This document shows, piece after piece, positions 20,592 through 52,807 of a stretch of DNA of 64,000 bases. The notes under the pieces are model-generated. The model had not been told where the DNA came from. It saw only the letters and a program-made list of their open reading frames with translations, and made no database searches. Numbering within the stretch: position 1 is the stretch's first letter; each line of letters begins with the position of its first letter. Position numbers and translations under genes: made by a program. The DNA lies in contig VKHL01000001.1 of NCBI GenBank assembly GCA_015146655.1, positions 365,501-429,500 of the forward strand, given 5' to 3'. This DNA comes from Ochromonas danica. Taxonomy: Eukaryota > Sar > Chrysophyceae > Chromulinales > Chromulinaceae.

Positions 20592-20960
20592 GTATAACTA
20601 ATACTAAGTCCACTAACAACAACAATAACAACAAATAAGTAGGATGAATTTCAAACGAAAATCTATCTTTCAATCGTGTTGTTGATCTGTAATAATTTAA
20701 TAGCTGATCCTTTTATTTCTGTTCTTTTACTCTATGAATGAAAAGCTATCATGCATCTTCTTCTTCAACAGGTGAAGGTTAGAAGAGGTTTGGAAGAAGA
20801 CTACAATGTTGATTGATGTCGATGTCGTTCCCTTGTCCGCAGAAGAGTGTGAAGCACAAGCTCCAGACTGCCAGACCCAGAATTCTATGGAATCGCTACC
20901 ACAGACATTGCGTGGGAAGTAATAATATCGCGTGATGAAATCAGCGAATGAAAGTTGCGA
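20592..20960. promoter_or_regulatory. Divergent promoter region, receptor kinase / NYN gene
   Basis: The 369-nt spacer contains a cluster of three CCAGA units (20863-20867, 20871-20875, 20877-20881), the first two separated by CTG. The same spaced pair occurs before NOC1. Confidence 0.4.
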
Positions 20961-31819: not shown

Positions 31820-31855
31820 ATTGAATTCCATTGAATTCCATTGAATTCCATGAAT
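31820..31855. repeat. Tandem TTGAATTCCA decamer, three copies
   Basis: Three copies at about 31821-31850, each containing an EcoRI-type palindrome, lie in the 289-nt spacer between VAC14 and the hydroxylase/glycosyltransferase gene. Confidence 0.85.
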
Positions 31856-31965: not shown

Positions 31966-34129
31966 ATGTTGGATGCTTTAGAGAAATTGCTCCTGGCAGA
32001 GAAACCTCTACCACTCATTGTGAAAGATCATCTGTTTGATGATATTTTGAATGATGTCCATGAAGAAGCCACAAAGATATATCATGAGAAGAAAGAAGCT
32101 TTCGAGCGTGGAGCAGTTGGCGGTTTGAGCCGAGCTCTTGTTATTGATGAAAGAGGTGACTTGCGATGTTGGCTTACACCCAACTTTTGCAGTGAAAATA
32201 GATTATCTGCGATTTCTACTTTGGTAAAGCGAGTGATTAGTTGGTGCAAAGAAGTGAAACAACCACTTCAGCTCAATGGCGAATATTCTGTGCAACTCAC
32301 TTGTTATCCTGGAAATGGAGCTCGCTATGTCAAACATAGAGATGCATTTCATTCTTCAGCTCATGCATCGGATCCTCAGCGTTCTGGTCATCGCAAGCTT
32401 ACCTTTGTATGCTATCTCAATAAGGAATGGGAAGGAGGACATTTACGCGCTCACTTTTCTCCGGATCAAGCATCTGTTGATCGTTCTTTACCAGCATTTA
32501 TTGATGTAGAGCCTTTGTTAGGAAGGGTGCTTGGATTTAGAGGGTAAGAGCTAACCTCTACTTTGTTTGCTTTCCTAAAATACTCACATACTTGTTCTTT
32601 TTGTCTCAGTGATATTGTTGAGCACGAGGTAATGCCTTCTTTCAAGAATCGATTCGCCATAACTTTGTGGGCTTATAGTGATACTCCAGGTCCTCTATTT
32701 CATTCTATTTCTACCTCTACTACTCCCGTTATTCAGGAGACAACGATTTCCCAGTTTCTTCCAAGTTTGTGCAATCATGTCTATCGCCCGCTTTCCAGTC
32801 AAAAGAATTTCTCCCATAAGCGTATTTTTGTATCAATAGCAAACTACAGCGATTCTGAAGGCTTGAAGACTATTACCCATCTCTTCTCTACTGCTTCCCA
32901 CCCCGAGCGCATTTTTGTTGGGCATGTCTATCAGGGATCAGTGCAAGATCATTTGCACGATTTCTCCTATCTTCGTATCACTGATCTTCCAACACCTGTT
33001 GCCAACTGCTTGAAGAACAACATCAGGGTGTTGTTAATGCCTCGCCAAGATGCTACTGGACCATGCTTGGCAAGGCAGTTCGCTCAACGGCTTTGGAAAG
33101 ATGAAGAGTATTTCCTTCAAATCGACTCACATATGCGTTTTCGTCCCAATTGGGATGAATATCTGATTAATTTACTTGAGCACATTGAGAATGAAAAGCT
33201 TGAAACGAAGAAGGCGGTATTAACAACGTACCCAATAGCTTACAATCTTCCTGATTCTCCTCCTTCCGATTATTCGCCCACTATTTTGGTAAGATGGTCT
33301 GAAGCTTGCATATTGCCTCGACTTTGTTTGATGTGCTGTATATATACTACAGATACCGACTAACTTCGGTAGTGACGGGATTCTTCGTCAGAGTGCCAAA
33401 ACTGTGACGGTGCCTATTAGGCCCAAGAGTTACTTTCGATCTCCGCTTTGGGCATCTGGATTCAGTTTCTCACGAAGCTGTTTGATCGAAGATGTTGAGT
33501 ACAGCTCTTATTTACCACAGTTGTTCTTTGGTGAGGAATCCCTCATGGCTGCCAGGTGATCATTGTTCCCTTGCTGAACCCTTATTTGGTGACTTTCCCA
33601 TGATATGATTATTTTTAGACTTTTTACAGCAGGTTATGATTTCTTTGCACCTGGAGAGGCTGTTCTATATCACCTCTATAGCAGAGATCATCGACCAGTT
33701 TTTAGCACTGCCCGACTGTCTGACCATGACAACCGCCAAAGTCAACGTCAGGCATCACAAGAGGTTGTTAGAATATTGCTTGGAGAAGATATTGCTCAAC
33801 CCAATGATTCCACTAAGCGACTCTTAAGATTGAATCGTGAGCGATTCCCCATGGGTAGTGAGCGGAGCCTGGATGAATTTGAAGCTTATTGTGGTGTCTC
33901 CTTTGCTGCTAAATCGATTACTCGATCCCTGTCCTCATGGCAAGCATTTTTCTTGTCAACCAAGGGCAGAGAGGACATTTCATTGGACCTTCATGTGGCA
34001 AGTGACATATGTGCACAAGACGACGAACCTGCTGGCGCTCTTAACAACATCATGTTGGAGCTTAGCAAGAATAAGCAAAGCCCCGAGATGGAGAAAATAG
34101 CCAACCTTCTGCATAAATTCTTGACGTAA
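31966..34129 (+). CDS. Prolyl 4-hydroxylase (PHD2/PhyA type) fused to GT60 Gnt1-like GlcNAc-transferase
   Basis: Exons 31966-32543, 32610-33288, 33353-33555 and 33619-34129 encode 656 residues. The N-terminal ~240 residues are a 2OG-Fe(II) oxygenase: LTCYPGNGARYVKHRD with the HxD iron ligands, YLNKEWEGGHLRAHF, the distal His in VEHEVMP and the 2-oxoglutarate Arg in NRFAITLW, in the same order as PHD2 and Dictyostelium PhyA. From ~280 a GT60 domain follows: RIFVSIANYSDSEGLKT, PRQDATGPCLARQ, FLQIDSHMRF with the DxH-type metal site, PLWASGFSFS, LPQLFFGEE and a HLYSRDHRP block. Known separate enzymes PhyA and Gnt1 hydroxylate Skp1 Pro and add GlcNAc in the cytosol; no signal peptide is seen here either. 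An out-of-frame ATG lies 16 nt upstream (31950). Confidence 0.9.
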
Positions 34130-50700: not shown

Positions 50701-52350
50701 CTATTGGAAGAAATGATGCAATGCTCTTTCAGTGGCTGTCACCAAGTCATTGACACCCTCTAATGTTTCGGCTTCGGCATAGATACGCACCACATCTTCC
50801 GTTCCAGAAGGTCTAACAAAGCAGCGACCTTGTGGTACTTTTTTCATGGCATTGTCCAACTCTTCTTGTAATGAGAGGGGAGCAACTAGTCGCATCTCAT
50901 CCTCACTGCAGAGAAGTTGTGACTTGTCTGGCACATTGACCTTGCATTGCTTGCTGGGAAGATCTTGATACATAGTAAGCCATTGTTCCACACTCATGTT
51001 CTTAACGTTCAAGATGGCAAGAACTGTTAGCATGTCACTCAGTGCATCGCCAACAGTGTGGTTAATTACCCTCAAACAAGCCTGCAGTCTAGTGAATGCT
51101 ATACTGTGTTTCTTTTCCAATAATCCTTCACCTTGACTATGTGCAGTAATTGCTGCTTTCGCTCTTGGTGAGAAATTGACAGTGCCATGACCATTGGCCT
51201 CAAAGTAGATGCCAACATCCAATGATTGCGCAGCATGATGAAGATATTTCACACCTGTCTTCGCAAAAACTATAGAAGTGAACTTTCGTAAGAAGGCTGT
51301 ACTTGCTCCATTGGCATATGCAGTTTGAACAATGCCTTGACTGAGAGAAGAAGCTACCCCTGCATTAAGAAGTTCTTCTTGTAGGAAGGATGCTATCAAT
51401 ACAGCAATTCGATCACCATCCAACAAATGCCATCCATCTTCTAAAAACACATGAAATACAATTCTATCTCCATCTCCATCAAATGAACATAATAACTTCC
51501 CTTGATCATCTATAGCACTGACATTTAAAGGAGGTTGTTGTAACTTCTGTGCATGTTCAGCACCACAATTAGCATTAACAGATCCTTCTCTTGCTTTATT
51601 ACGAACTTCAATCTGCCATCCTGGTATCCCACCATTTTCTTGTGCTATAGTAAGAAATTGTTCAACAGTAATTGATCCCACTCCAAAGGATGCATCAAGG
51701 ACGAGAGTACGAGGTGTTGCAGTGGATAGCGGATGATCAGCAGTGCTAGTTAGTGATTGATAACCACCTAATAACTCCTTATAATAATTTAATAATATCA
51801 CCTCAGATTGAAATTCTTGAGGTCGTGTTTTGGTACGATTAAATGCATCAACACAGAAATGTAACGCTGGTGTGATAACTTCTCCTAAATGAAGTGCTAC
51901 ACCACCCACTGCCTTAATCCCTTTCCCTACACAATCTACTAAGATTGGACTATGAGTTCGTGTATCCCAACCTACCATAACAATTCCTTGTGAAGCATTT
52001 TGAGACAATCCTGTATACATTTTCTCAATTTCTTCTAGAAATTCATTTAATGGTAAATTAGCTAATCTCTCAGAGAGACTTTCCCAATTCTTTGTTAACA
52101 TCCCACCATCAACATCAACAATTTTCACACCATTATCTCTTTCTAAATTATGAGAAGCCGTTACCATAATTCCAGTACATTTACCATAACAATCAAAGGA
52201 TCGTAAGGCAGCAATCATACCCACACGAATAAAGAGTTGATGAAGACTTTCTTCATATAGACTACGAAATCCAGCCGTTCCATAAGCATAATACTTTTCA
52301 CTATGGATAGGAATATTATCAAAAGCAGCTCTTAATTGATGGCGATTCAT
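50701..52350 (-). CDS. PGM3: Phosphoacetylglucosamine mutase (AGM1/PGM3)
   Basis: One exon encodes 549 residues. The enzyme converts GlcNAc-6-phosphate to GlcNAc-1-phosphate on the way to UDP-GlcNAc. The phosphoserine loop is VTASHNLERDNGVK with Ser66 as catalytic; the metal loop FDGDGDRIVF lies near residue 290; the sugar-binding end has CFVRPSGTEDVVRIYAEAE. Length and order match eukaryotic AGM1. No targeting signal, so it is cytosolic. Its product feeds N-glycosylation, chitin and the GT60 enzyme of this window. ABC-F follows upstream on the same strand with 457 nt between. Confidence 0.96.
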   Translation of the reverse strand: MNRHQLRAAFDNIPIHSEKYYAYGTAGFRSLYEESLHQLFIRVGMIAALRSFDCYGKCTGIMVTASHNLERDNGVKIVDVDGGMLTKNWESLSERLANLPLNEFLEEIEKMYTGLSQNASQGIVMVGWDTRTHSPILVDCVGKGIKAVGGVALHLGEVITPALHFCVDAFNRTKTRPQEFQSEVILLNYYKELLGGYQSLTSTADHPLSTATPRTLVLDASFGVGSITVEQFLTIAQENGGIPGWQIEVRNKAREGSVNANCGAEHAQKLQQPPLNVSAIDDQGKLLCSFDGDGDRIVFHVFLEDGWHLLDGDRIAVLIASFLQEELLNAGVASSLSQGIVQTAYANGASTAFLRKFTSIVFAKTGVKYLHHAAQSLDVGIYFEANGHGTVNFSPRAKAAITAHSQGEGLLEKKHSIAFTRLQACLRVINHTVGDALSDMLTVLAILNVKNMSVEQWLTMYQDLPSKQCKVNVPDKSQLLCSEDEMRLVAPLSLQEELDNAMKKVPQGRCFVRPSGTEDVVRIYAEAETLEGVNDLVTATERALHHFFQ

Positions 52351-52807
52351 CGCAGCAATTCAATCTATTCCTGCCATCTTCAGCTTCTTCGCCGTCCTTT
52401 CCGGGTTTTCGTAATGTTGAAAGCTTGTATTTTCGATGTTTTGAATTTTGGGTGGATTAGATGGCTTAGTTGAGTTGACAGGTGGTAGTTAAGTTATGAG
52501 CTAAACTCATACTGTAAGTTTTTACTCATCAACTTTTTTGTCAAACCGCTAGAAGAAGCGAATCCTTACTTATTTGTAGTTATTTGTCTTTGTTTAAATG
52601 TTGCGGTAAATACCTGGTAAATAGCTGCGGAAGCTCATCCCTCACCTTCAGGAGCTCGTGTGGAGACACAAACATGGTGAGAAAGACGTCGAACACAAAG
52701 TTTTGAAGAGACTACCAATAGCAACCGTAAGTAAGTTTAACACATTAAACAGGCAAACTTCAACTTCGCCACCTATACTGTGGTTCAATCCCACAATAAA
52801 GATCATT
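52351..52807. other. Intergenic region, AGM1 / ABC-F
   Basis: 457 nt, promoter of AGM1 and 3' end of ABC-F. Two GGTAAATA copies (52604-52611, 52616-52623) lie in it. A short ATG-led plus-strand frame shows no domain. Confidence 0.5.

Follow-up and report, generated by a model that had tools for sequence, protein, structure and literature searches.

A gene in Ochromonas danica predicted to join a PhyA-type prolyl hydroxylase and a GT60 glycosyltransferase in a candidate bifunctional Skp1-modification enzyme

The DNA analysed here, referred to as the window, is a stretch of 64 kb from the chrysophyte Ochromonas danica; it is eukaryotic nuclear DNA with short introns and a GC content of 41%. Genes recognised in the window encode Vac14, a DENN protein, UFD1, a CBF/Mak21 protein, an NF-Y-like histone-fold protein, glutamate synthase, a RUS protein and YacP-NYN proteins, and no tRNA or Rfam matches were found in its 64 kb. 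The predicted proteins at 20952, 26996, 13313, 57037 and 54766 each begin with a signal-like stretch that is followed by an aromatic residue or leucine near the likely cleavage site (for example ...SIA/FQYF and ...SSNA/WIDT). In sequence, these beginnings resemble the two-part plastid presequences of secondary-plastid algae and by themselves suggest such an alga, most likely an ochrophyte. A phosphoacetylglucosamine mutase gene (AMG1; UDP-GlcNAc synthesis) lies at 50704-52359, and its location at ∼17 kb from the gene described below is probably a coincidence.

This gene extends from 31966 to 34129 on the forward strand and consists of four exons that together encode 656 amino acids followed by a stop codon. 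It is separated from the Vac14 gene by a gap of 290 bp, within which the sequence attgaattcc is repeated in tandem in about three copies (31820-31855). The features of the gene are as follows:

31966..32543, + strand: exon 1, residues 1-193, with the N-terminus and most of a PHD/PhyA-type 2OG-Fe(II) dioxygenase domain, including Y114 and the H124-x-D126 iron ligands
32544..32609, + strand: intron 1, 66 nt, GT-AG, with an in-frame TAA inside
32610..33288, + strand: exon 2, with the C-terminus of the dioxygenase (H198, R207), a linker of ∼45 amino acids, the start of the GT60 domain (RIFVSIANY, residue 264) and the QIDSHMRF metal-site motif (residues 363-370), all in one frame
33289..33352, + strand: intron 2, 64 nt, GT-AG, length not a multiple of three
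33353..33555, + strand: exon 3, GT60 domain continued, FGEE motif at residues 478-481
33556..33618, + strand: intron 3, 63 nt, GT-AG
33619..34129, + strand: exon 4, the end of the GT60 domain with TAGYD and HLYSRD, ∼70 amino acids of C-terminal tail and the stop codon TAA

The spliced model (31966-32543, 32610-33288, 33353-33555 and 33619-34129) is free of stops in translation, and an in-frame TAA immediately upstream of the ATG at 31966 shows that the N-terminus of the protein is complete. Retention of intron 1 would truncate the dioxygenase before H198 and R207 because of the TAA that this intron carries, and intron 2, the 64 nt of which would cause a frameshift, has to be removed for the reading frame to be maintained. 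Across the junction of intron 3, the stretch GEESLMAAR/LFTAGYDFF aligns without gaps to bacterial and viral relatives that have no introns. The junctions 32543/32610 and 33288/33353, which had been proposed in a preliminary description of this locus, are exact in the spliced model, while the third intron was absent from the checks listed there.

The preliminary description had placed both domains in one spliced frame, and this was confirmed by the open translation of 656 amino acids, the Pfam domains within it and, above all, the continuity of exon 2. This exon consists of 226 stop-free codons that span both H198/R207 of the dioxygenase and the QIDSHMRF motif of the transferase. Because both active-site motifs are thus located in one exon and one frame, the fusion does not depend on splice prediction. 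The other five frames over the same stretch contain 7-15 stops each and none of 2000 shuffles remained open, which rules out that exon 2 is open by chance. Conceivably, two neighbouring genes, the first for PhyA and the second for Gnt1, could have been misread as one, the more so as the two enzymes are separate in Dictyostelium and Toxoplasma. However, the stop-free exon 2 runs across both active sites, and there is no methionine between residues 201 and 336 from which a separate transferase beginning near residue 264 could start. We therefore reject this two-gene arrangement as exceedingly improbable, and conclude that the joining of a PhyA-type domain to a GT60 domain is almost certainly real at the level of the sequence.

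The N-terminal domain had previously been described as a PHD2/PhyA-type 2OG-Fe(II) oxygenase with the HxD motif, the distal histidine and the 2OG-binding arginine in place, and the Pfam and structure searches bore this out. Residues 110-215 match PF13640 (2OG-FeII_Oxy_3) above the curated cut-off with an E-value of 4e-15, and the iron triad HxD...H and the 2OG-binding arginine are present as H124, D126, H198 and R207. The closest solved structure is 6t8m (E 2e-15), which carries the PDB entry name prolyl 4-hydroxylase subunit alpha and which we take to be the PhyA of Dictyostelium (DdPhyA). Next come human EGLN2 and EGLN1 at ∼1e-12 and then, at 3e-10, 6ey1, which is a HIF prolyl hydroxylase; the matches to 6iuq (2e-4), 4iw3 (0.005) and collagen/plant-type P4H of the 2jig type (0.02) are much weaker. 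In the alignment, where the residue number equals the column position plus 16, Y114, H124, D126, H198 and R207 are common to the window protein, DdPhyA and human EGLN1/2, and W213 likewise occupies an invariant column. Judged from its sequence, the dioxygenase belongs to the PHD/PhyA subfamily and not to the collagen-type P4Hs, since the matches to DdPhyA and the EGLN proteins are the strongest and the ligands fall in invariant columns.

Likewise, the assignment of the second domain to the GT60/Gnt1 type, with its QIDSHMRF and GEE/HLYSRD blocks, was upheld. Residues 326-583 match PF11397 with an E-value of 2.6e-64 and 218 bits against a curated cut-off of 21, which places the domain in GT60 and not in an unrelated family. 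To collect relatives, the metal-motif segment was used as a query and yielded 13 viral contigs; an alignment of these with the window domain then yielded 79 bacterial loci. The window domain is 22-37% identical to 31 bacterial and viral relatives and keeps all of their invariant columns, among them D365-S366-H367, W374-D375, F477, E480-E481 and G492. From the columns conserved in at least 90% of these relatives it retains 37 out of 44, and it departs from bacterial-conserved columns at S271N, R273S, 468-471, W520L and W526R.

A profile search of the PDB by sequence returned no solved GT60 structure, only chance matches with E-values near 0.5. The fold was approached through a bacterial relative, the Pseudoduganella protein L014, which is 35% identical to the window domain; the results apply to this relative. 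When folded with an alignment of relatives, L014 gave a model with a pLDDT of 94.4 and a GT-A fold, the nearest solved structures being retaining polypeptide GalNAc-transferases of family GT27 (Foldseek 7.6e-12). Superposition on GalNAc-T2 gave a Z-score of 23.6 with an rmsd of 3.7 Å over 272 aligned residues, and the next group scored 16-18. This modelled GT27-like fold agrees with a peptide-acceptor transferase with a D-S-H metal site, and it speaks to the fold rather than to the acceptor.

A search for proteins aligning to both domains had been proposed as a check. The full-length protein found no match among viral contigs or bacterial and archaeal genomes, nor did queries with the PHD domain among the viral contigs, while the GT60 domain alone matched the 13 viral and 79 bacterial loci. 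PF11397 domains are in fact widespread in Proteobacteria, Acidobacteria and other bacteria (L014-L092), where their partners are often methyltransferase domains and once each a radical SAM and a GT10 domain; they also occur in IMG/VR viral contigs (L001-L013), some of which (L002, L003 and L004) carry two. The proteins from Pseudoduganella, Magnetococcales and Yersinia, which are 28-37% identical to the window domain and keep all invariant residues, differ from the window protein in that they stand alone or are joined to methyltransferase or other domains. Since GT60 is so common in bacteria and phages, where it is combined with other partners, the family label by itself fixes neither the acceptor nor the sugar.

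Upon comparison of the window PHD domain with all 13 viral and 79 bacterial loci by phmmer, no clear relative was found and only L041 gave a marginal match. This open reading frame (1072-2994; 641 amino acids) from the Burkholderiales MAG GL140_5 is unbroken and encodes a GT60 domain (76-318) and a 2OG oxygenase domain (527-630, E 1.6e-16). Its domain order is the reverse of that in the window gene, with GT60 first, and its hydroxylase belongs to a different subfamily, the closest solved relatives being bacterial and human collagen-type prolyl 4-hydroxylases at ∼1e-19. A second GT60 open reading frame directly follows L041, and a search of 300 Burkholderiales genomes gave no second copy of the full L041 fusion. 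If real, L041 would show that these two chemistries were brought together independently; an assembly error in the MAG is a possibility.

The location of the window protein in the cell bears on its possible substrates. Collagen and wall P4Hs are secretory enzymes, and an enzyme of the Golgi or ER type acting on secreted or wall hydroxyproline proteins could be considered on this ground. Moreover, a secretory GT60 enzyme exists in the form of the T. cruzi polypeptide alpha-GlcNAc-transferase, as cited in PMC6939170. However, hydropathy analysis predicted neither a signal peptide nor a transmembrane segment or N-terminal signal anchor in the window protein: the maximum Kyte-Doolittle mean over 19 residues is 1.02, at which no such element is expected, and the in-frame stop upstream closes the N-terminus. 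As the dioxygenase is furthermore of the PHD type and not of the collagen type, we reject a secretory role as very unlikely. The predicted lack of a secretion or membrane signal is what would be expected of the cytosolic Skp1 pathway, rather than of a GT60 enzyme in the secretory route.

Known enzymes provide the frame for an interpretation. The preliminary description had left it in doubt whether such fusions are known in other protists, and the literature answers that they are: a dual-function prolyl 4-hydroxylase/GlcNAc-transferase of Pythium ultimum was published in Glycobiology in 2019, as cited in PMC7864055 and PMC8724618, and odd-even pairs of pathway enzymes are frequently fused in protists (PMC8724618). 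The architecture is thus already known, and the Ochromonas danica gene is a further member. Going by its description in these citing papers, the Pythium enzyme likewise combines a PhyA-type hydroxylase and a Gnt1-type GlcNAc-transferase in one polypeptide; its activity has been measured, whereas the window enzyme, from another and probably photosynthetic lineage, is known from its sequence. In Dictyostelium and Toxoplasma the same two domain families are found, but PhyA and Gnt1 are two proteins encoded by two genes. Human PHD2/EGLN1 and EGLN2 have the dioxygenase family and the iron- and 2OG-binding residues in common with the window protein but, unlike it, they target HIF-alpha and lack a glycosyltransferase. 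GT60 genes have also been noted in brown algae (PMC11468063) and prasinophytes (PMC3797821).

On the basis of these family memberships, from which the two activities, Skp1 as the target and a role in regulation are all inferred, we propose, with a probability of roughly 0.85, that the window protein is a cytosolic bifunctional Skp1-modification enzyme. With O2, Fe(II) and 2-oxoglutarate, the N-terminal PHD/PhyA-type domain would 4-hydroxylate a C-terminal Skp1 proline, and the C-terminal Gnt1-type GT-A domain of family GT60 would transfer alpha-GlcNAc from UDP-GlcNAc onto the resulting hydroxyproline. Because the sugar requires the hydroxyl and the hydroxyl requires O2, the assembly of SCF ubiquitin ligases would, in this proposal, be coupled to oxygen through the modification of Skp1, as in the known Skp1 hydroxylation/glycosylation pathway (PMC6939170, PMC12101541). 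With respect to the Skp1/oxygen interpretation given in the preliminary description, the two domains and their fusion stand and the interpretation is the best available reading, with DdPhyA as the closest solved relative, while the function itself is a matter of family resemblance.

Alternatively, the protein could be a genuine bifunctional hydroxyproline-glycosylating enzyme for which Skp1 is not the substrate, or not the only one, so that another cytosolic protein would receive the GlcNAc-modified hydroxyproline. This would be consistent with the many partners of GT60 domains, also in organisms without the Skp1 pathway, and with the activity of PHD enzymes on further proteins, bacterial EF-Tu being one example (PMC7864055). 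In addition, neither Skp1 nor genes for later steps of the pathway were recognised within the 64-kb window. On the other hand, PhyA and Gnt1 serve Skp1 in the eukaryotes studied, a PHD-type enzyme hydroxylates Skp1 in Pythium (PMC7864055), and it is DdPhyA that gives the closest solved match. We consider a substrate other than Skp1 unlikely, and the Skp1-modification enzyme remains our preferred reading.

A direct hand-over of the product between the two active sites of such an enzyme, as suggested in the preliminary description, would be a speculative possibility. The kinetics in the study of the Pythium enzyme reportedly gave no evidence of processivity, and good modification is said to have been observed in only one of two Skp1 isoforms. 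It is a speculative and improbable idea that, in an O2-producing photosynthetic alga, the fused enzyme passes Skp1 straight from hydroxylation to glycosylation, such that the SCF switch would respond to O2 within the cell in a single committed step and might involve targets unlike those of amoebae or parasites.

The fusion gene of Ochromonas danica leaves the known picture unchanged. With it, a lineage that probably bears plastids joins the organisms with fused O2-dependent Skp1 modification enzymes, and this new lineage bears on the age of the fusion and offers one more enzyme for testing how the two steps are coupled.
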